This document shows positions 6,120 through 34,219 of a DNA stretch of 64,000 bases, piece by piece (position 1 is the stretch's first letter; each line of letters starts with the position of its first letter). The stretch comes from Qipengyuania flavescens (GTDB lineage: Bacteria > Pseudomonadota > Alphaproteobacteria > Sphingomonadales > Sphingomonadaceae), in assembly GCF_029688735.1 (NCBI RefSeq), contig NZ_JARULD010000004.1:1-64000 (forward strand). The letters are read 5' to 3'. Below the pieces are notes generated by a model. It had not been told where the DNA came from, did no database searches, and saw nothing but the letters and a program-made list of their open reading frames with translations. The position numbers and the translations under genes are program-made.

Positions 6120-6974
6120 ATGCAGCAGACCGCGACGCCATCATCGGAAACGACTGCCCCCTGGGATATCGTGACACAGCCCGGACCGGTACTGATCGCC
6201 GCGGTACACGCGGGCCACACGATCCGGGAATCCCTTAAGCCCTGGCTGGAGATCGGCGAGGCGGAGCGTTTGCGCGAAGAAGATCCACTGACCGACTTTT
6301 TTCTCGCCGCCGGCGACACTGTAGTCCGGGCCAACCGGTCGCGCTTCGAATTCGATCTTAATCGACCGCCAGAAAGTGCAGTAACCACTGATCCCGAAGA
6401 TACCTGGGGGCTGCGTATCTGGAACCCCGCCTTGCCCGAACAGGAAAAAGTGCGCTCGCTTGCGCTCCACGGGCGGTTCTACGACTGGATCGCCCAGCGG
6501 GTGGAGGCAATGATTGAAGAGCATGGGCGAATTCTTGTGCTTGATGTGCATAGCTACAATCACCGGCGAGAGGGGCGCGATGCGGAACCGGATGATCCAC
6601 GGGTCAGCCCCGATATCGACCTCGGGGCTACAACCCTGAACAAAGATCTTTATGGCGAACTGCTCGAACGATTCAGTGATGCCCTGCGTTCGCGGCCAGT
6701 TGATGGCCGGATTCCAGAGGTTGGTACCAATATTCGTTGGGAAGATGGCGGCCATTTTCCCGAATGGCTACATGCCGAATATGGTGATGCCGCCTGCGTG
6801 ATAACGCTCGAATATAAGAAAATATTCATGGATGAATGGGGCCATTCGGCCGACATCCTCGCGCTACAAGATTTGCGCGAGGGCTTCCTTGCGGCGGTAG
6901 ACGAGGCGCGCAAGTGGCTCGCTGCACACCCAGCGCCTGACCACGCACGGATCGAGGCGGGGTCGCCAACATGA
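6120..6974 (+). CDS. N-formylglutamate amidohydrolase family protein
   Basis: 284 residues from the ATG at 6120; an in-frame GTG at 6051 that overlaps the previous stop would add 23 basic residues and is the alternative. The FGase fold is shown by VHAGHTIRES near the N-terminus, LDVHSYNHRREG in the middle and GHFPEWLH further on, which carry the His/Glu/Asp residues expected to bind zinc. The named reaction of the family is hydrolysis of N-formyl-L-glutamate in histidine breakdown, but no hut genes are near. Here it sits in one overlapping unit with a DUF1704 metallopeptidase and a glutathione-synthase-like ligase, so a gamma-glutamyl or N-acyl-glutamyl peptide is a more likely substrate (inference). 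Its stop overlaps the next start (ATGA). Confidence 0.8.
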   Translation: MQQTATPSSETTAPWDIVTQPGPVLIAAVHAGHTIRESLKPWLEIGEAERLREEDPLTDFFLAAGDTVVRANRSRFEFDLNRPPESAVTTDPEDTWGLRIWNPALPEQEKVRSLALHGRFYDWIAQRVEAMIEEHGRILVLDVHSYNHRREGRDAEPDDPRVSPDIDLGATTLNKDLYGELLERFSDALRSRPVDGRIPEVGTNIRWEDGGHFPEWLHAEYGDAACVITLEYKKIFMDEWGHSADILALQDLREGFLAAVDEARKWLAAHPAPDHARIEAGSPT

Positions 6975-8185
6975 CAAGCCTCATGCCAGAGGGAAGTAGC
7001 CAAGAAATCGGCGACCAACCACTTTGCGAGGCCGCAATCGGTGTTGATCGAGCGCTTGCGAAAATGGACCGCAAAATCGATTGGCTCGAGCGACTGACTC
7101 CGGTCAATATTGACGCGATCTGGGACGGTTTTCAGGCTTCCGCCTTCCGGTCGATGCCAGACAGCCAGTATGGGGAGGGACTTGACCGGGATGCGCCGGT
7201 ACTCCGCAGCGAGCTTTTCGAATTGCCCGTTCGCGAGATCAAAAACCCGCTCATCGAGGCGCTAATGCTCGAGAAGCAGCGCGAGCTTGATCGGCAGATC
7301 GAACTGGTGCGCATGCGTGACAGGGACGGCTTCATTTTGGCGAGTATCGATCTCTTTGGGCATGTCAGCGAACGGCTTCTCCAGACCGCGCTCGACCTGC
7401 TGGAAACCGTCCCGATCTTTCCTGCGGACGACGAGGATGTCGGCGTCATCGAGGTCTGTGAAGCGGCAGAAGCTGCGATTTCCGGCTATCGCAAGCGGGC
7501 CGTCGACTTCCGCTGTGCAGTGGTGATCGACCCCACACCGGGAACCTCGATGTACGTTTCCGCGGGTAATTTTCATGTTGCGCACGATTACCGCACTTCG
7601 CGACACCGGGTTAATCCCCTGATCGCCCACGAAATAGGCACCCATGTCGTAACGCGCCATAACGGACGTCGGCAGCCGCTGCACACATTGGCGGGAGGGC
7701 TTTGTGACTACGATGTCCTGCAGGAAGGGCTTGCGGTCCTCGGTGAATATCTCACCGGGTACCTTCCCGCCGAACGGTTGCGCATCCTTGCCGCAAGGGT
7801 TGTTGCCGCACACATGGCTGTAGAAGAAGAGAAGGGGGCCGAGATCTACGCCTGCCTGGTGGATGAACACGGGATCCGCTCGAAAGATGCATTCGACACC
7901 GCGGTGCGCGCGAAGCGCGGAGGCGGTCTGACGAAAGACGCGCTCTATCTTAAAGGGCTCGAAGAACTCATTGCCTATCTCAGCCACGATGACGAATTCG
8001 AGATTCTGTTCCTCGGTAAATTTGCGTTGAAGCAATTGCCCAGTCTGCAAAAGCTGATCGATCAGGGCATCTTACAACGTCCCGAGTTACTCCCGGCCTA
8101 TTATGATGATGAGGCGGCTCGCCAGCGGCTCGCCCAAGCGCGCAAATTGCCCCTTCAGGCACTCTATCAGGAGACACCGCAGTGA
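6971..8185 (+). CDS. QEGLA-motif (DUF1704/MATCAP-type) zinc metallopeptidase
   Basis: 404 residues. It has the DUF1704 signature: HEIGTH at 220-225, an HExxxH zinc site, and QEGLAVLGEY from 251, where Glu252 is the likely third ligand. Databases name bacterial members flavohemoglobin expression-modulating QEGLA motif protein, a name without mechanism. The eukaryotic relatives (MATCAP) are metallo-carboxypeptidases that remove the C-terminal tyrosine of tubulin, so a small-peptide or C-terminal trimming activity is plausible here. No signal peptide, so cytoplasmic. It overlaps by four bases both the upstream amidohydrolase and the downstream ATP-grasp gene, which suggests fixed stoichiometry and a shared pathway. 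Confidence 0.85.
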   Translation: MTSLMPEGSSQEIGDQPLCEAAIGVDRALAKMDRKIDWLERLTPVNIDAIWDGFQASAFRSMPDSQYGEGLDRDAPVLRSELFELPVREIKNPLIEALMLEKQRELDRQIELVRMRDRDGFILASIDLFGHVSERLLQTALDLLETVPIFPADDEDVGVIEVCEAAEAAISGYRKRAVDFRCAVVIDPTPGTSMYVSAGNFHVAHDYRTSRHRVNPLIAHEIGTHVVTRHNGRRQPLHTLAGGLCDYDVLQEGLAVLGEYLTGYLPAERLRILAARVVAAHMAVEEEKGAEIYACLVDEHGIRSKDAFDTAVRAKRGGGLTKDALYLKGLEELIAYLSHDDEFEILFLGKFALKQLPSLQKLIDQGILQRPELLPAYYDDEAARQRLAQARKLPLQALYQETPQ

Positions 8186-9492: not shown

Positions 9493-10064
9493 AAGTTGTA
9501 AATTATCGTAGCTCGGCTCTTCAGACAAGGCTCCTGCTTTTTCACCTTCTGAAAACTAGTTTTAAAGCCCATTGAACGGAACCCTCGGGCTCGACAGTCT
9601 GCTTCGTCAAGAACGCAGCGGGTTCTAACTTGTTGCCGGAAACGCAGATGCGGTAGGTCAAGCTGAACTTTTCCCGAGGTGTTGCTAAGGCATCCACTCC
9701 CGGGAAGACTAGCTTCGCGTCCGCTTTTGGGGAGAGCAAATCGGGGAAGCTACGAATGAGATGAGGGCGCGAAGCTGACGATAGTAGGACAGTGAGACCA
9801 GAATTTTCCCAATGACTACCGTGCCCATCTCTTTCATGTCGGGTGCGCCACTAGCGAAGATTCGCGAAATTCTAGGATTCTCAAATTCAACCGACAGACA
9901 TATGATGGGTGGTTATTAATCGAAAGCGGACTGGCGCTTTTCGGGAGCAGAAATCCGCCATACCCGTTCCGCCACAAGACGATTATTGCTACCCCTTGCT
10001 CGTGACATCGGGGAACGTTGCAAGACACCAGGGTGGGTTTTTCGCAGCTTGCCGCGCCCCGCGC
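9493..10064. other. 572-base gap without a supported gene
   Basis: Composition is lower in GC than the neighbouring genes. Two short open frames on the minus strand (9542-9739 and 9834-10028) have TTG or poorly supported starts and no recognisable domain; I do not call them. The gap contains the left copy of the 85-bp repeat (9764-9850) and ends at the 3' end of the P450-DyP gene. It looks like an island junction. Confidence 0.5.
9764..9850 (+). repeat. Left copy of 85-bp direct repeat, att-like, ending in a tRNA-Arg 3' end
   Basis: The stretch is an imperfect direct copy of 23206-23290. The best part is the last 45 bases, where AATGA.TAC.GTGCCCATC.CTTTCATGTCGGGTGCGCCA differs at only three places. 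The last 14 bases, TGTCGGGTGCGCCA, equal the 3' end (with CCA) common to tRNA-Arg genes of alphaproteobacteria, the usual target of tyrosine integrases. No full tRNA is present here. Together with the right copy it bounds 13.4 kb of accessory genes. Confidence 0.6.
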
Positions 10065-25961: not shown

Positions 25962-27623
25962 TCAGGAAGGCTTTAGACGTCCGTTCTCGAGCGCGAACCT
26001 GAGCGATGCCATTTCTGCCAGCCTTCCACGGTGACCGATGACCAGCACGGTGCATTTGCCTTCGAGCCCAGCCACCGCTTGCGCGATCTTTTCTTCGCTG
26101 CCCGGATCGACTGCGCTGGTCGCCTCGTCGAGGATGAGCAGGTCTGGCTCGCGCAGCAGCGCCCGGGCGAGGGCGATCCGCTGGCGTTCCCCGCCAGAGA
26201 GCGCCCGGCCTGATTCGCCGATCTGGCAGTCGATGCCGCCCGGCAGGTCGTGAACGAAGTCTGCCGAAGCGCGGCGCAAGGCTTCACGGAGTTGGCATTC
26301 CTCCGCATCGGGCTCGACCCAGAGCAAATTATCGCGCACGCTACCGGAAAACAGCACAGGGTCTTGTTGGACATAGGCCACGCGCGTTCGCCATGCCTGC
26401 CGCGCCGCGCCGTCCAACGGGTCGCCGTCGACCAATACGTTCCCGCTATCGGGCGAAATCAGTCCGCCGAGCAGGTCGGCGACCGTGCTCTTGCCGGCAC
26501 CGGACGGGCCGGTAAGCGCAGCGATCTCGCCGTGCGGGATTTCCAGCGAGACGTCGCGCAAGGCTGGTCGTTCACGGTCATGGGCGAAGCTTGCGAGCTC
26601 GAGCGCGATAGAGGTGCGCAAGCGCGGAGCCTCGCCGGCAGGAGGCGTCTCGGCCTGCTCTTCGGTTCGGGCGATAAGCTCGCGGGCCTCGGCGAGGGCG
26701 GGCGCGGCATGGTTCCAGCCTTGCGCCGACATTTGCAACGCCTCCATCAAAGGGATGGCGCGAACGGCCAGAGCCACGAAGGCGAGCAGCATCGCCATTG
26801 GCACGTCCCAGAGCATCATGGCCAGCCAGACCGCCAAAGCCAGCACGCACGCCGCAGCCAGCTGCAGGATGGCCCGGGCGATGGCCGCGCCGCGGATATA
26901 GGCATATTCGGCAGAGCGCATCCGCTCGAAGGTGGTCGACAGCCTGCGGGCTTCCGCCTCCTCGCGTCCGAAACTCTTGATCAGGCGCAGGCCCGAAAGG
27001 CTTGCTTCGAGCCGAGCGTAGATCGCTTCGTAGCGCCGCGAAAGCTCCTCGCCGAGGCGGCGCGCATCGGTTCTCAACCAGCGCAAGGCGACAAGCGCGG
27101 CGATACCTGCAACCGCGCCGCCCAGCGCCACCACTGGTGACAATGCCACTGCGGCCAGTGTCAGCGCGCCGAGTGCAAGGCCGGTTCTCAGCAGCGTCGT
27201 GAAATAGGTCACCGCCTCGCCCACCCGGTCCACCGAGGTAATGATAAGGGCGCGGCTGGCACTCTGCTCCATCCCGGCAAGCGCACGCCACTCCGCACCC
27301 AACAGCGCGCGGACTGCGCAGCCGCGCAATCCGTCGACCACTCCCACTTCGATCCGCTGGGCCAGCAAGCTGCGCGCGACATCGGCTATCGCGCGGATTG
27401 CTACTAGCAGGACGAACATGGCGAGCAGCACGCCGAGCGGCCAGTCTGGCAGGTCGAGCGGCAATGCGGCAAATGTGCGGTCCTGGTCGAGCGAGGCGAC
27501 CAGCGGCACGAGGAGTAATAGCCCGACACCCTCGCTCGCAGCCATGAGTGCAGTAAGCCCGACGAGCAGGCTTAATCGAGGCCCCCCTGCGAGATTGGCG
27601 AGTATCCGCAAGGTCCCGATCAA
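25962..27623 (-). CDS. ABC transporter, fused permease and ATPase, likely RiPP exporter (lasso D-type)
   Basis: 553 residues from a TTG at 27623 that overlaps the stop of the cyclase gene (TTGA) and has GAAGGA eight bases upstream. Six transmembrane segments in residues 1-300 are followed by a nucleotide-binding domain: Walker A GPSGAGKST, signature LSGGERQRIALARALL, Walker B LLILDEATSA. There is no N-terminal C39 peptidase domain, so it cannot remove the leader itself. Position at the end of the lasso-type gene set makes it the export and immunity pump for the peptide product. Confidence 0.85.
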   Translation of the reverse strand: MIGTLRILANLAGGPRLSLLVGLTALMAASEGVGLLLLVPLVASLDQDRTFAALPLDLPDWPLGVLLAMFVLLVAIRAIADVARSLLAQRIEVGVVDGLRGCAVRALLGAEWRALAGMEQSASRALIITSVDRVGEAVTYFTTLLRTGLALGALTLAAVALSPVVALGGAVAGIAALVALRWLRTDARRLGEELSRRYEAIYARLEASLSGLRLIKSFGREEAEARRLSTTFERMRSAEYAYIRGAAIARAILQLAAACVLALAVWLAMMLWDVPMAMLLAFVALAVRAIPLMEALQMSAQGWNHAAPALAEARELIARTEEQAETPPAGEAPRLRTSIALELASFAHDRERPALRDVSLEIPHGEIAALTGPSGAGKSTVADLLGGLISPDSGNVLVDGDPLDGAARQAWRTRVAYVQQDPVLFSGSVRDNLLWVEPDAEECQLREALRRASADFVHDLPGGIDCQIGESGRALSGGERQRIALARALLREPDLLILDEATSAVDPGSEEKIAQAVAGLEGKCTVLVIGHRGRLAEMASLRFALENGRLKPS

Positions 27624-29458
27624 AAATCGTTCCTTCGCTCGGCGTGCGCAATGAAGGTCGCTGCGCTCAACGCGCGAGTCAGGCCGATGGCGCGGGGCAG
27701 ACTGTCTCGCGCATTCGCCGGAGTTCTTTCCGGCCAATGCCGCAGCAGCTGTTCCATCCGCTCAAGGTCGATGATTCGGGTCAGTTGCTCGTGCGAAGCC
27801 ATCTGGCGCACAGTTTGCAGCAATTCCGCACGCCGCGCGCCCAGCCGTGCGTGCCAGTCGGCGTTGTGTCGTCCCATGCGTGTCTCTTGCCGCTGGCTTT
27901 CCGGCATGATGCCTTCCGCCAGCCGCCGCGCGAGGTAGCGCGTTTTGCCATTACGCACGAATTGGTCGGTGGGCAGCCCGTGACAGAACTCGATAAGGGG
28001 ACGATGGGCGGTGACGTCGCGGAAGCCGATACGGTGCAGGCGTGCGAGGCCGAGATCGAGGTCTTCGCCGCTGTCGGCGCTGGCCCACATGCCCCGGATA
28101 GATTCGGCACGTGTGCACTCTATGGCGGCCGGATCACCGATTTTGGCCCGTCGCTGTTGGCGCTTGCGCTGACGCCAGTCCTGCCGCGCCACCTCGGTCA
28201 GCAGCGCAAAGGGCGGGATGTCGCCGGGCTTGTCGCGATGGACCAGATTTCTGATACGGGTTTGCAGCTTCGAGGGGAAATGCGGCAGCACTGCCTCCGC
28301 GAACAACCGTCGCACGGTGCCGCGTTCATCACCCTCGGTTTCGCGCGACAGCAACGCGTACAATGACCGCCACCTGCCGCGGCGCAGATACTCGGGTGCG
28401 GCCCAGCGCCCGTCGAGGCTGATGGTAAAATTGCCAAGCATGCCGGTCAGCATTGTATCGCGGCCGTCCGAGGCGGCAGTTTCCAGCAAGAGATGGAAAA
28501 ACCCGATATTGGCGACATTCGCCGTCGGACTTGCCGTGAAATCGAGCAAATCGCGGAGGCGATAGTCCTGCTCTGCCGGCGCGGGGTCCGGGAAGTGAGG
28601 CCGCAACCGCGAATGCTGGCGGGCGAAAGCACGAACGAAAGGCCGGTCGTCACCGAAGGTCCCGGCAGGTGCAATACCATCCCAACCGTCGACAGGACCA
28701 TGGGTGTAGCTCGGCAAAACCTTCTCATCCGGCATCGCCCGCAAAAGAGCATCGGCGACGATGGGGCTGTCGAGCCCTCCGGATAGCATGATGGCGGGGC
28801 GCTTCGAGCGATCCAGCGCATGATGAGCCGACTGGTCGAGCAGTCCGCGTGCGGCCTCGACGTAGTCATCGTCCCGAACAAAGCGAATATCGGGGATGGC
28901 GACGGGATCGTAGTAGCGGTCGATCGTCATCCTATCGCGCTCTACCACAATGCGTGATCCGAGGGGCACCCGGCCGATCCCGCGAAACCAGCCGCGTGGC
29001 TCCAGATCGTGGTGATCGAAAGCGAGCTGATCGGCCAGATGCGCGTAATCGATTTCGCGCTCGATACCGGTCCAGAAGATGGCGTTCAGGATCGGTGAAG
29101 CAGCCATGCGATCGCGGCGCGCAACGAAATGCAGCGGCGGTGCGGTCCATGGTGACCTAACAAGTCGAAGGCGACTTTCTCCAAGCATGGTAGCGGCGCA
29201 GTAATGGCCGATTACCCGCATCTCCGCAGCGTCGCCCCACCGGCCAAGTGCGGTTTGATAAATTCGTGCGGGGGTTGTGTTGGGCGCCAAGGACAACTGT
29301 TGGCGAAGTTCTTCGCAATTGTCGATCGAGCCGAAAAAAAGAGTTTGGCCTCTTCGATCGGCAGATGCATCCGAGGCGATGCAATCGAAGCCGTCCGACG
29401 ACCAGCGCGCAAGCGAACCATCGCCTTCGCGCCACCACTCTGGCGCGATAGTGCCCAT
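27620..29458 (-). CDS. Asparagine-synthetase-like RiPP enzyme (lasso cyclase, C protein)
   Basis: 612 residues from ATG 29458; an in-frame TTG at 29494 is an alternative and neither has a strong ribosome binding site. The N-terminal 130 residues are a degenerate glutamine amidotransferase-like domain without the catalytic Cys2. The ATP-pyrophosphatase loop SGGLDS is at 226-231. In lasso peptide systems this protein adenylates an Asp or Glu side chain so that the core N-terminus can attack it. It lies between the precursor gene and the ABC exporter. What it activates here is unclear, because the precursor has no acidic residue in the expected core. Confidence 0.85.
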   Translation of the reverse strand: MGTIAPEWWREGDGSLARWSSDGFDCIASDASADRRGQTLFFGSIDNCEELRQQLSLAPNTTPARIYQTALGRWGDAAEMRVIGHYCAATMLGESRLRLVRSPWTAPPLHFVARRDRMAASPILNAIFWTGIEREIDYAHLADQLAFDHHDLEPRGWFRGIGRVPLGSRIVVERDRMTIDRYYDPVAIPDIRFVRDDDYVEAARGLLDQSAHHALDRSKRPAIMLSGGLDSPIVADALLRAMPDEKVLPSYTHGPVDGWDGIAPAGTFGDDRPFVRAFARQHSRLRPHFPDPAPAEQDYRLRDLLDFTASPTANVANIGFFHLLLETAASDGRDTMLTGMLGNFTISLDGRWAAPEYLRRGRWRSLYALLSRETEGDERGTVRRLFAEAVLPHFPSKLQTRIRNLVHRDKPGDIPPFALLTEVARQDWRQRKRQQRRAKIGDPAAIECTRAESIRGMWASADSGEDLDLGLARLHRIGFRDVTAHRPLIEFCHGLPTDQFVRNGKTRYLARRLAEGIMPESQRQETRMGRHNADWHARLGARRAELLQTVRQMASHEQLTRIIDLERMEQLLRHWPERTPANARDSLPRAIGLTRALSAATFIAHAERRNDF

Positions 29459-29531
29459 CTTTGCGTCTTGAACCGGTGATGAGACGAGAAACAAGGGCTG
29501 TTACCGCCTCGGAAGGCCTTGCGACAAGCGG

Positions 29532-29669
29532 TCAGGATCGTGCGTTCGGCCCAGCCTGGGTGCTGACGCCTCGAGGGCCTGCGATGTCGCGGATCGTGCC
29601 CAGGCGCACGAGTGCCGGGGCGATCCATTCGCGCTTTCCGGCGTGATCTTGCATATTCCGGTCGGTCAT
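29532..29669 (-). CDS. Lasso-type RiPP precursor peptide
   Basis: 45 residues, MTDRNMQDHAGKREW up to ...GPRGVSTQAGPNARS, with GAAGGAAA seven bases before the ATG. The leader has the lasso recognition motif in conserved spacing: Trp15-x-x-Pro18-x-Leu20-x-x-x-Gly24, with Trp in place of the usual Tyr. By that spacing the leader ends near Ala30 and the core is residues 31-45. The position normally held by Thr (-2) is Ala. The core contains no Asp or Glu; the only acid after Gly24 is Asp28. It is encoded between the RRE gene and the cyclase gene, all on the minus strand. I am confident it is a RiPP precursor, not that it makes a threaded lasso. Confidence 0.8.
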   Translation of the reverse strand: MTDRNMQDHAGKREWIAPALVRLGTIRDIAGPRGVSTQAGPNARS

Positions 29670-29720
29670 CTCGGTTTCCTTCGCGATTGCCTGGGAAGAT
29701 AGCGCAAATGCAGCGAAAAT

Positions 29721-29987
29721 CTAGTAAAGCTTAACGAGTCCGGACTGCTCCAGATCGCGGATGAGAGCGCTCACGTCCCGCTCGATGGTTTCGATGGGCG
29801 CAGAAAATTCCCGTCTCAGGGCCTCGGCGATCGCCTCCGCACTGCGCTCTCCGTCGATCATCTTCCAGACTTCCCGTCCCGTGCCCGAGAGCGAAAACAG
29901 TTCTCCGCCGTCGAGATCGACCAGCAGGATTTCGTCGTCGATCTCGGTCTCGACGAAATTCGCGGTCAGCTTGCGGGGAACGCTCAT
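29721..29987 (-). CDS. PqqD-family RiPP recognition element (lasso B1)
   Basis: 88 residues. VETEIDDEILLVDLDGGELFSLSGTGREVWKMIDGERS followed by IAEALRREFSAP and LEQSGLV is a PqqD/RRE winged fold, the stand-alone domain that binds RiPP leaders and hands them to modifying enzymes. It is the first gene of the minus-strand set, 51 bases before the precursor. In most lasso loci it works with a transglutaminase-like peptidase (B2); none is encoded between here and rpe or elsewhere in the set. Confidence 0.88.
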   Translation of the reverse strand: MSVPRKLTANFVETEIDDEILLVDLDGGELFSLSGTGREVWKMIDGERSAEAIAEALRREFSAPIETIERDVSALIRDLEQSGLVKLY

Positions 29988-30103: not shown

Positions 30104-30766
30104 ATGACCCAACCGTTGATCTCCCCCTCCATCCTCTCGGCCGATTTCGCGCGGCTGGGCGAAGAGGTCCGCGCCATCGACGAGGCGGGGGCGGACTGGA
30201 TCCATGTCGACGTGATGGACGGGCATTACGTGCCCAATATCACCATCGGCCCAGCGGTGGTGAAGGCGCTCCGCCCGCACACCGACAAGCCGTTCGACGT
30301 GCATCTGATGATCGCGCCGATCGACCCCTATCTCGAAGCTTTCGCGGAAGCGGGGGCGGACATCATCACCGTCCATCCCGAGGCCGGGCCGCATATCCAC
30401 CGCACGCTGCAGGCGATCCGCGGGCTGGGCAAGAAGGCCGGCGTGGTGCTCAATCCGGGCACGCCTGCCAAAATGCTCGACTATCTCATCGACGAGGTCG
30501 ACCTCGTGCTAGTGATGAGCGTCAATCCCGGGTTCGGCGGGCAGAGCTTCATCCATTCGCAGCTGCGCAAGGTGGAGGCGATCCGCCAGATGATCGACAG
30601 GACCGGGCAGGATATCCACCTCGAAGTCGATGGCGGCGTCAATGAAGAAACCGCGCGGCTGTGCGTCGATGCGGGCGCGGATGTGCTCGTCGCCGGTTCG
30701 GCCACCTTCAAGGGCGGGCCGGGGCAATATGCCGCCAACATCGCTGCGTTGAAGGGCGGCCAATGA
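30104..30766 (+). CDS. rpe: Ribulose-phosphate 3-epimerase
   Basis: 220 residues of a TIM barrel: [16 protein letters not shown] at the start, the metal site [19 protein letters not shown] and the end EVDGGVN. It interconverts ribulose 5-phosphate and xylulose 5-phosphate in the pentose phosphate pathway. The gene diverges from the RiPP set and its stop overlaps the start of the heparinase-like gene (ATGA at 30763). Confidence 0.95.
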
Positions 30767-32625
30767 CCGAAGGCGTCCACACGCTGCTGCGCGAGGACGA
30801 CCGCACGCTCGACACCGCCGATGCGCTCGCGCTGCCGCTAGGCGATGCGGACGAGCCATTGGTGATCGATGGCGAGGCTGCGGCGGTGGGTGAGGTGCCG
30901 CAGGAGCCCGGACGCGTCCTCGCTCTTTCCGATTTCAAGCCTCCCCAGGCCGGGCCGGTGGATGCCGCGCTGCGCTGGGCGTATCGGCTGGGCGTGCCCG
31001 GCAGCCTGCTGGCGGCCCCGCTGCGCAAGCCCGCTGCGCCGCGGATGCTCGGCACGGTCATGTCGCCGCTGGAGGGCGACCGGGCGGCAGGCATGGCGCT
31101 GCGCGCGGGGCAACTGCAGGTGCACGGGCTCAAGGCGCCGATCGACAAGGTCGATTTCGCCAGTTCCGCGCCGCTGACTCCACCGTTCCTGCGCGTGGTC
31201 CACGGCTTTACCTGGCTGCGCGATCTCTCCGCCTGTGCCCCGCGCGAAGAATGCGCGCCGATTGCCGAGCGGGCCTTGCGTAAATGGCTCAAAGCCAATC
31301 CAGGTCCGGGCAAGGGCGCGGCCTGGACCGTCGAGAATGCGGGCCTGCGCCTTCTCGGCTGGTTCGTCCACGCGCCGCTGATCCTGTCGGGCGATCCCGC
31401 TGCGAGAGCGCGGATGCTGGAGCAGATGGAAACGACCGCGCGCTGGCTGGATCGCAATGTCACGAGCGCCGGCGACCGGCTGGGCCAGGTTGCAGGCTGG
31501 TGCGCGATTACCGCAGCCGGATTGCTGCTGCCCGATGGCCGTCCGCGCCGGCTCTACAGCGAAGCGGGCCTGCTCCGCGCGCTCGGCGAACTGGTGAGCG
31601 ACGATGGCGGCGTATTGTCTCGCAGCCCGCTGGCACAGATGGAAGCGATCGCGCTGCTGGTCGACCTCAAGGCGTGTTACGATGCGGTCGATCGCGACCC
31701 TCCCGCCGCGCTGGAGACCATGATCGCGCTGCTGGTCCCGCCGCTGCTCACGCTGCGCATGGGCGACCGGGCGCTGGGCAGCTGGCAGGGCGCAGGCAAG
31801 ACCTCCGCCGCCCGGCTGGATGCGCTGATAGAAGCGACCGGCGTGCGCGCCCGTCCGGCCAAAGATACGCGCCACTGGGGATACCAGCGCGTCGATGCCG
31901 GCAAGAGCGTGCTGGTGCTGGACGCCGCGCCGCCACCGCGCCCGCGCCACGCCCGCCATGGTTGCGCTTCGACGCTGGCGTTCGAATTCTCCGCGAAGCA
32001 ACAGCGCATCATCGTCAACTGTGGCGGCGCGGAACTCGCAGGCGGGCAGGTGCCGATCCGCATCGAACAGGGTCTGCGCGGCACGGCAGCGCATTCGACG
32101 CTGGTGCTCGACGATGCCAATTCCACCGCTGTGCTGATCAAGGGCCAGATCGGCAAGGGCGTCGAGGAAGTCGATATCGCGCGCACCGTGGTGAAACAGC
32201 GCGGGCGCGACGCCACCCGGCTGGAGGCGGCGCATAATGGCTATGCCGCGCGCCACGGCCTGCTCCACCGTCGCATCCTGCTGCTCTCGGCAGATGGCGA
32301 GGAATTGCGCGGCGAGGACCTGCTCGAACCGTCGGGCAAGGAAGGCAAGCGGGGCAAGATCGCCTTCGCGATCCGCTTCCATCTCGGTTACGGGATCGAG
32401 GCTGGCCTATCGGAAGACAATCGCGGCGCGGGCCTCGCCCTCCCGGACGGCAGCTACTGGCAATTCCGGCTCGGCGGCGATAACGGCGAGGCGAAAATGA
32501 CGCTCGAAGACAGCCTGTGGGTCGATGGCCATGGCCGTCCGCGGGCGACGAAACAGCTGGTCGTCGAAGGACTGACGCCGCGCAGCGGGGGGCGCTTCCC
32601 CTGGCTGCTTAAACGCATGGGGTAA
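30763..32625 (+). CDS. Heparinase II/III family protein
   Basis: 620 residues from the ATG overlapping the rpe stop. The N-terminal half is helical (alpha-toroid type: [44 protein letters not shown]) and the C-terminal half is a beta-sandwich with [10 protein letters not shown] and KQLVVEGLT, as in heparinase II/III-like polysaccharide lyases. No signal peptide is evident. Members next to rpe and purH are usual in sphingomonads; the polysaccharide is not known and a role in cell envelope metabolism has been assumed only from family. The stop lies seven bases before purH, so the three are probably one operon. Confidence 0.8.
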
Positions 32626-32632
32626 ATTTCAC

Positions 32633-34219
32633 GTGACGGATGTAGCAATCAAGCGGGCACTGCTCTCGGTGTCCGACAAGAGCGGTTTGGTGGAGCTCGG
32701 CAAGGCGCTAGCCGCCAAGGGCGTAGAGCTGGTCTCGACCGGCGGCACCGCGAAGGCGCTGCGCGAAGCGGGGCTGGAGGTGAAGGACGTTTCCGACCTC
32801 ACCGGCTTTCCCGAGATGATGGACGGGCGGGTGAAAACGCTGCACCCGATGGTCCATGGTGGCCTCCTCGCCGTGCGCGACAATCCGGATCATGCCGCCG
32901 CGATGGAGGAGCACGAGATCGGCGCCATCGATCTGGTAGTGGTCAATCTCTACCCGTTCGAGGCGACCGTGGCGAAGGATGCGGAACGCGACGAGATCAT
33001 CGAGAATATCGATATCGGCGGTCCGAGCATGGTGCGCAGCGCCGCGAAGAACCACCAGTTCGTGACCATCGTCACCGACCCGGCGGATTACGATACGCTG
33101 CTGGGCGAGCTGGATGCGAACGGCGCGACCAGCCTCGATTTCCGGCGCAAATGTGCGGCCAAGGCGTTTGCCGCAACCGCTGCCTACGACAGCATGATCA
33201 GCCAGTGGTTCGCTTTCGCCGACCAGCAGCAGACTTTCCCCGATTTCCTGGCCATCAACGGCAAGGCGCCGGTCGAGCTGCGTTATGGCGAGAACCCGCA
33301 CCAGAAGGCCGCGCTCTATACGCCGGTCGGTCCGCATGCGCGCGGCATCGCGCAGGCCGAGCAGCTGCAGGGCAAGGAGCTCAGCTACAACAATTACAAC
33401 GATGCCGATGCCGCACTGGAACTGTGCGCCGAATTCAAGGGCGGCGATCCCGCAGTAGTCATCGTCAAGCACGCCAACCCCTGCGGCGTGGCGCAAGGCG
33501 CGACTTTGCTTGACGCGTGGAACGAAGCACTGGCGTGCGACAGCGTCTCGGCCTTCGGCGGCATCGTTTGCGTCAATACCGAGCTCGATGGCGAGACGGC
33601 GGCGGCGATCTGCGAGATCTTCACCGAAGTCGTCATCGCTCCCTCGGTGACCGACGAAGCGCGCGAGGCTTTCGCGAAAAAGAAGAACCTGCGCCTGCTA
33701 GTTACCGGCGACCTGCCCGATCCGCGCCGCGGCGGGTTGAGCGTCAAGCCGATCACCGGCGGCCTTCTGGTGCAGACGCGCGACAATGGCGCGATCAGCG
33801 AGGCCGAGCTGAAAGTCGTGACCGAACGCGCACCGACCGAGCAAGAATTGAAGGATTGCCTCTTCGCCTGGACCGTGGCGCGGCACGTAAAGTCGAACGC
33901 GATCGTCTATGCCAAGGACGGCGCCACCGCCGGAATCGGAGCGGGCCAGATGAACCGCCGCGATTCGTCGCGTATCGCCGCGCTCAAGGCAGACGAAGCG
34001 GCGGAGAAATACGGCTGGGAGCAAAGCCGCGCTGTCGGAAGCGCTGTGGCATCGGATGCCTTTTTCCCCTTCGCCGACGGTTTGCTGGCCGCCGCCGAAG
34101 CGGGCGCGACAGCGATTATCCAGCCGGGCGGCTCGATCCGCGACGACGAGGTTATCGCCGCCGCCAACGAACGCGAGCTCGCCATGGTATTCACCGGGAT
34201 GCGTCACTTCCGCCATTGA
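32633..34219 (+). CDS. purH: Bifunctional AICAR transformylase / IMP cyclohydrolase
   Basis: 528 residues from a GTG start. It carries out the last two steps of purine synthesis. The N-terminal MGS-like cyclohydrolase domain reads [18 protein letters not shown] and [16 protein letters not shown]; the formyltransferase domain shows [25 protein letters not shown] and [12 protein letters not shown]. Length and order are normal. Confidence 0.95.

Follow-up and report, generated by a model that had tools for sequence, protein, structure and literature searches.

We analyzed a window of 64,000 nucleotides from Qipengyuania flavescens (assembly GCF_029688735.1, contig NZ_JARULD010000004.1, positions 1 to 64,000 of the forward strand) that carries a minus-strand operon with lasso-type machinery for a predicted ribosomally synthesized and post-translationally modified peptide (RiPP). 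Its four genes encode a PqqD-like RiPP recognition element (RRE), a short precursor peptide, an asparagine-synthetase-like (AS-like) enzyme and an ATP-binding cassette (ABC) exporter (Table 1). All four are open, and coordinates and Pfam matches bear out both this gene content and the TTGA overlap of the last two genes, as described in a first-pass annotation made from the sequence alone. That annotation also held that the machinery is lasso-like, which the Pfam matches of the RRE, the AS-like cyclase and the exporter support; that the locus lacks the B2 leader peptidase, and a B2 profile search of the whole window indeed returned nothing; and that the core lacks the acidic residue that would form the ring, which its sequence confirms.

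Table 1. Operon genes, window neighbors and the unlinked B2 gene (aa, amino acids; window coordinates unless prefixed by L033, the stretch around the B2 gene)
Feature	Coordinates	Strand	Evidence or remark
RRE/PqqD-like protein (lasso B1 equivalent)	29721..29987	minus	88 aa; PF05402, 68.7 bits, 5.5e-19
Precursor peptide	29532..29669	minus	45 aa; translation, compared with 43 other clade precursors
AS-like macrocyclase (lasso C type)	27620..29494	minus	624 aa; PF00733, 2.8e-15
ABC exporter	25962..27623	minus	PF00664 and PF00005; TTG start overlaps the AS-like stop codon (TTGA)
Lone B2 gene	L033:9483-9932	minus	PF13471; NF033537 (lasso_biosyn_B2), 60.1 bits, cut-off 33 passed
rpe	30104-30766		
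654-aa frame	30661-32625	plus	next to the operon, between rpe and purH
purH	32633-34219		

The precursor reads MTDRNMQDHAGKREWIAPALVRLGTIRDIAGPRGVSTQAGPNARS, with a leader ending in ...WIAPALVRLGTIRDIA and a predicted core GPRGVSTQAGPNARS, which has Gln at position 8 and contains neither Asp nor Glu. The leader carries WIAPAL, an instance of the lasso Y/WxxPxL motif; at its position -2, where lasso leaders typically have Thr, the window precursor has Ile, and Val occurs in relatives. The AS-like enzyme likewise presents the lasso cyclase signature, with an SGGLDS PP-loop at residues 238-243 and no N-terminal catalytic Cys of the glutaminase type (no MCG-type start), and its best NCBIfam match is the lasso cyclase model NF033535, at 79.4 bits against an unreached cut-off of 525. 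NCBIfam's lasso_PqqD models also match the RRE below cut-off, and the only match of the precursor, to rhodolasso, is far below it (E 0.11); ten other precursors of the same clade gave nothing at E<=1. The RRE is the sole PF05402 match (E<=0.001) of its own genome (G000).

Relatives were sought with the AS-like protein, which, own genome included, matched 36 of 199 family genomes at E<=1e-20, 68 of 397 family genomes at 1e-30 and 13 of 289 class genomes at 1e-20; the stretches around 79 matches were compared, a set that leaves out the family places in G330, G338 and G268 and 17 of the 21 class places. The homologous loci whose existence the first-pass annotation had left to be checked were thus found: the closest copy found is in Qipengyuania proteolytica (Erythrobacteraceae), with an AS-like protein 66% identical and a very similar precursor, and the gene set recurs in other genera, which is more than chance. 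A tree of 81 cyclases unites the window enzyme with 43 others in a clade (Shimodaira–Hasegawa-like approximate likelihood ratio test support of 100), so that, by phylogeny, window-type cyclases are a derived branch among lasso-type cyclases, which does not bear out the suggested separate peptide class. The gene order within the clade is RRE-[B2]-precursor-AS, with the ABC gene mostly next and absent from that place in some loci (e.g., L036, L038, L047 and L048). Contig ends truncate some clade loci; in the 43 others the RRE lies upstream in 42, with none found in L034; hence the RRE does lead, as first reported, and the view of this order as unusual is rejected since it is the norm of the clade. 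On the upstream side, a connected group of homologous frames occurs on the opposite strand in 38 of 43 loci compared and a PurH-like frame, recognized by eye, in 20 of 43; therefore, the operon site looks largely fixed. The 654-aa frame that adjoins the operon in the window has no NCBIfam match.

The precursors could be read for 43 of the 44 clade loci (L058 lies at a contig edge), and with two in L042 they number 44; L101, with Glu at -3, was counted beside 43 tabulated precursors, and L036, L043 and L056 were read individually. If the leader is taken to end in [VI]x and the core is numbered from there, 37 of the 44 have Gln as residue 8. Four more have an amide at position 9, namely Gln in L045 and L099 and Asn in L064 and L122. 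Across core positions 1-12 the entropy is lowest at residue 8 (1.05 bits, against 1.35 for G1 and 2.23-3.37 for the rest), and Gln8 is always equally far from the N-terminus, whereas its distance to the C-terminus varies between 6 and 15 residues. No Asp or Glu at all is found in 26 of the 44 cores, and we regard the acid-less core as a clade trait. Outside the clade, precursor candidates picked by eye from script output have Asp8 in eleven loci (L112, L116, L117, L118, L119, L121, L124, L057, L060, L063 and L126) and Asp9 in four (L053, L109, L114 and L123); several other outgroup loci (e.g., L059, L125, L127 and L132) yielded no precursor. Inside and outside the clade, [VI]x and residue 8 are equally far apart, although the clade leader is one residue shorter, and for this reason we place the Gln at 8 rather than 7. 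The absence of B2 from an operon does not explain the missing acid, because 14 of 17 B2-containing operons also have Gln (Gln8 in 13, Gln9 in L045), the other three being the acid exceptions L054, L103 and L115; the 26 B2-less operons comprise 23 with Gln8, one with Gln9 and two with Asn9. L042 carries two tandem precursors in one operon (7721-7930 and 7969-8133), both with Gln8. L120, which does not belong to the 44-member clade, has a Gln8 precursor too, possibly an independent acid-to-amide change.

The peptidase missing from the operon is encoded elsewhere. A PF13471 search of the whole of G000 gave one B2, on contig C6 (match 159515-159820, minus strand). Its neighbor is a gene for an acyl-CoA dehydrogenase, and 1.1 kb upstream lies an OmpA-like gene; the surrounding 19.5-kb stretch has no RRE, AS or ABC match, and a leader-pattern search within 3 kb of the B2 gene gave no precursor candidate, with a normal core or otherwise. 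Two of the five PF00733 matches of G000 are pieces of the window enzyme and none of the other three lies near the B2. The genome thus encodes a single lasso-type B2, unlinked, besides one PqqD/RRE match and one lasso-like cyclase. The view of the first-pass annotation that enzymes are missing is therefore revised, and we read the gene set as a split pathway. The Cys and His of B2 are kept in 114 of 114 aligned rows, and the service of the unlinked gene to this operon can be inferred from their co-occurrence. PF13471 is present in 86 of the 199 family genomes (in three only below cut-off), among them all 36 that have a cyclase match and 50 of the 163 that have none. Every genome checked that has a B2-less clade operon has a B2 elsewhere (15 of 15, 10 of 10 in a second set, and Q. 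proteolytica, 26 in all), and the contrast of 25/25 such genomes with the 50/163 cyclase-less ones, 10 of the 25 coming from a different draw, gives a Fisher probability of 6e-12; a further Fisher test contrasted 9 of 15 with 3 of 163. Within the window genus, B2 and RRE occur in all eight operon-bearing genomes and in neither of the two operon-less ones (G146 and G374).

Of the lone B2s, 13 share a common neighborhood. In the B2 tree 20 rows are split from 93 others by a branch with support of 100/99, 17 of them from genomes with B2-less operons and three from genomes without a cyclase match in the 199-genome search; the long-branch row L266 sits oddly with this group. The B2 is not alone everywhere, as in G135, where the B2 is ~5.6 kb from the AS gene, in G065, with two B2s that each have an RRE match nearby, and in genus g38 (G037, G222, G259 and G343), where the operon is without its ABC gene and the B2 lies within ~3 kb of one. 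As a control, we took 56 B2 regions from cyclase-less genomes, leaving out some second hits and the three below cut-off: AS and/or RRE lies within ~3 kb in 50 of them and not in L210, L212, L227, L228, L231 and L236. A looser search of these six genomes placed an AS-like gene within 10 kb of the B2 in G104 and G120, only far from it in G041 and G103, and found none in G016 and G126; therefore, lone B2s do exist in a few genomes lacking a window-type cyclase.

The two operon-less congeners provide natural deletions. G374 is very close to the window genome (99% amino acid identity in two flanking proteins, 91-93% at the DNA level). At the operon site its alignment jumps from window position 25971 to 29909 across 12 unaligned bases, so that of the RRE gene the first 79 bp remain; at the B2 site it passes from position 9978 to 9544 of L033 with 96 unaligned bases between, leaving the last 62 bp of B2. 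We take these remnants to reflect deletion of both unlinked loci in one lineage, which is good evidence for one pathway. In G146 both sites are empty too, less cleanly (window 25761/30006; L033 9433/9978). The missing B2 as a sign of decay is consequently disfavored, both by the unlinked B2 and by the absence of B2, with scars, where the operon is absent.

Hence, we propose a two-locus lasso-type RiPP pathway with a B2 acting in trans and a ring closed at Gln8, a combined reading to which we give a probability of about 0.5. Its parts differ in strength: that the unlinked B2 serves the operon in trans is very probable, whereas closure at the side-chain carbonyl of residue 8 has somewhat better than even odds. 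Briefly, as in its family, the RRE would bind the WxxPxL leader, and the unlinked B2 would be recruited in trans to cut after D-I-A (D[VI]A in the clade), thereby freeing Gly1. The AS-like cyclase, driven by ATP, would then join this new N-terminus to the side-chain carbonyl of Gln8, a residue whose position is observed and whose reaction is conjectural, and the ABC protein would export the product. Two forms of the product may be envisaged: an ordinary isopeptide ring, with the Gln deamidated or ammonia lost (net -17.03 Da), or an amidine ring, with the carboxamide oxygen adenylated by the cyclase (net -18.01 Da); the two are 0.98 Da apart. The calculated masses are 1453.739 Da for the linear core, 1454.723 for its deamidated form, 1436.712 for the isopeptide ring and 1435.728 for the amidine ring. 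The proposal in the first-pass annotation that the AS-like enzyme may make a different bond is fair, in the sense of a different bond or an extra step.

Several observations weigh against this proposal. On the side of the peptidase, the B2 of G002, G096 and G158 lies inside another RRE-B2-AS cluster and may mainly serve another peptide there; 8 of the 25 genomes with B2-less operons have a B2 outside the main lone group; one main-group B2 is in G016, a genome without any cyclase match; and six of the seven genomes examined from genera g16 and g38 have another RRE and AS ~6-20 kb away from the lone B2 (in G037, on another contig), so that there too it may mainly serve another peptide; we take the lone B2 to derive from such a second cluster. 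On the side of the ring, an acid occurs at residue 8 inside the clade in three of 44 precursors (Glu8 in L054 and L103, Asp8 in L115); 12 of the 37 Gln8 precursors carry an Asp at 7 and/or 9 on which the ring could be closed instead; and the WxxPxL rule of PMC10368454, with the aromatic residue at -17, would make the Gln residue 7. As to these other clusters in their own right, those of G158, G096 and G002 (L184, L186 and L190) are distinct RRE-B2-AS clusters with precursor candidates of the pattern RPYxxPVL/EL...TxTGxxxFTQE, which resemble neither the Gln8 nor the Asp8 group, and the second RRE and AS-like pair seen in L198 (about 6731-8000) and in G120, G222, G259, G104, G015 and G166, ~6-20 kb from the lone B2, has in L198 a sulfotransferase-like frame (by eye) just upstream. 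In addition, L053, L109 and L114 are second cyclase loci of genomes G178, G221 and G258, with an Asp9 precursor and no RRE or B2 match nearby; these genomes also carry a B2-containing Gln8 locus, and the second loci may borrow RRE and B2.

The strongest rival, which we regard as unlikely though of appreciable weight, is that Gln8 is first deamidated to Glu8, by the transglutaminase-fold B2 or another enzyme, and then closed as a normal lasso isopeptide; the acid would merely be hidden in the precursor, and an ordinary lasso peptide would result. The acid variants inside the clade would fit such an acid-requiring cyclase with a separate deamidation step; the rings of the outgroup at Asp8 or Asp9 and the retention of the Cys and His of B2 point the same way. 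However, if Glu were the true substrate it should often replace Gln, which it rarely does against the prevailing Gln8, and no deamidase is known here, though none was searched for and the shared flanking gene groups were not annotated. As Gln and not Glu is kept across the clade over a large divergence, we lean slightly towards direct use of Gln, and hence towards the amidine. The fullest version of this view, in which the cyclase clade moved from carboxylate to carboxamide chemistry to make an N-terminus-to-Gln8 amidine lariat with a leader peptidase from an unlinked locus, is a tentative suggestion that we hold to be unlikely.

A second alternative is that the cyclase uses another carboxylate, such as that of the C-terminal Ser, to form a head-to-tail or differently linked ring, with Gln8 aiding recognition only. 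In its favor, this Ser is nearly invariant (43 of 44 clade precursors), and the C-terminus is the only free carboxylate of the cores that lack Asp and Glu. Yet many acid-bearing outgroup precursors end in Ser as well, which weakens it as a clade-specific ring residue, and Gln8, with its fixed spacing on one side and variable spacing on the other, behaves like a ring residue; we therefore consider this version improbable. Finally, a decaying locus that lost B2 and the ring acid and makes no peptide would accord with the lack of both and with the two congeners that lost everything, but is very improbable given that the cyclase, RRE and precursor are open with motifs conserved clade-wide and that the unlinked B2 is retained with the operon and absent with it in G374 and G146. 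The outcomes that the first-pass annotation named as refuting its own reading were not observed: by leader pattern, neither the 900 bp preceding the AS gene on its strand nor the surroundings of the B2 hold another precursor with a normal core, the enzymes keep their motifs, and homologous loci are conserved.

In the cyclases, S238 and G240-S243 of the PP-loop are kept inside and outside the clade, and R113, N355, S359, R519 and D576 are conserved as well. An N-terminal AS glutaminase acting on the peptide Gln is disfavored, as no clade enzyme has an MCG-type start; with start codons assigned mechanically, the only such start among the 81 enzymes is that of L105b, an AsnB-like neighbor, the match in L036 being internal and due to chance. 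W364, E368, R462 and T509 are clade-typical and were rejected as a Gln/acid switch because L054, L103 and L115, the acid exceptions, keep them too; one of these has His in place of Y195. At position 419 (window numbering), all three have Gly, and 31 of the 41 amide rows have His; since Gly also occurs in the Gln8 rows L055 and L056 and in L120, it is at most a lead as a candidate determinant. A PDB sequence search gave nothing at E<=0.01, and a single-sequence AlphaFold model was unusable (mean predicted local distance difference test score, 35.6).

In terms of known systems, lasso peptides are defined with an Asp or Glu at core positions 7-9 that closes the macrolactam (PMC10368454, PMC9266682, PMC13352647). 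This feature was tested and is absent from the window core, Gln8 being the rule in its clade (37 of 44 precursors), and hence we do not file the locus as a lasso peptide, even as its machinery suggests that it works like a lasso system. Close published precedents are the Ile/Val(-2) lasso loci of Bradymonadales, Acidobacteriaceae and Sphingomonadales described by Duan et al. 2023 (PMC10368454), where Ile(-2) is a published exception to Thr(-2). They share with our locus the residue at -2, a separate RRE and Sphingomonadales members, and differ in that the BsfA ring closes on Asp8; the parts of that study consulted report neither a Gln ring residue nor a distant B2, the ring residues of the Sphingomonadales precursors being given in its supplement. 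The reported metanodin is unusual at residue 1 (Asn) and not in its ring acid (PMC12670498), and the Erythrobacter pan-genome study, in the parts available, counted lasso clusters without core analysis (PMC9723273). In a literature search over titles and the beginnings of abstracts, with few subscription papers, neither a Gln ring residue nor a distant B2 was described for lasso loci, nor was an N-terminus-to-Gln amidine linkage met in the lasso literature consulted. Leader peptidases acting in trans from outside the cluster have precedent in MicP1/MicP2 and TldD/E, which, according to PMC10885120, are metalloproteases that serve other classes, unlike the class-specific lasso B2 that is itself unlinked here.

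Direct use of Gln would mean that an AS-like enzyme performs amide-oxygen chemistry on a peptide and closes the ring by a new reaction; prior deamidation would mean that the pathway conceals a further maturation step. In either case, the distant B2 is a gene to include when the pathway is reconstituted. Lasso search tools use the Asp/Glu rule, and because such searches commonly expect this residue and a nearby B2, the branch would be easily missed or misread as broken. Argininosuccinate synthetase and TilS are ATP pyrophosphatases that activate amide-like oxygens by adenylation; they are not RiPP enzymes, and by analogy only, their PP-loop chemistry could likewise adenylate a carboxamide to give an amidine-type bond. 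A close parallel is canonical lasso biosynthesis (A, B1/RRE, B2, C and D), as in microcin J25, fusilassin and paeninodin: alike are the RRE, the AS-like cyclase without an N-terminal Cys, the ABC exporter, the WxxPxL leader, the presence of B2 in the genome and a distance from leader end to ring residue matching that of the Asp8 relatives, whereas here Gln (or Asn) replaces Asp/Glu, Ile/Val replaces Thr(-2), B2 is unlinked and the cyclase scores far below the NF033535 cut-off.

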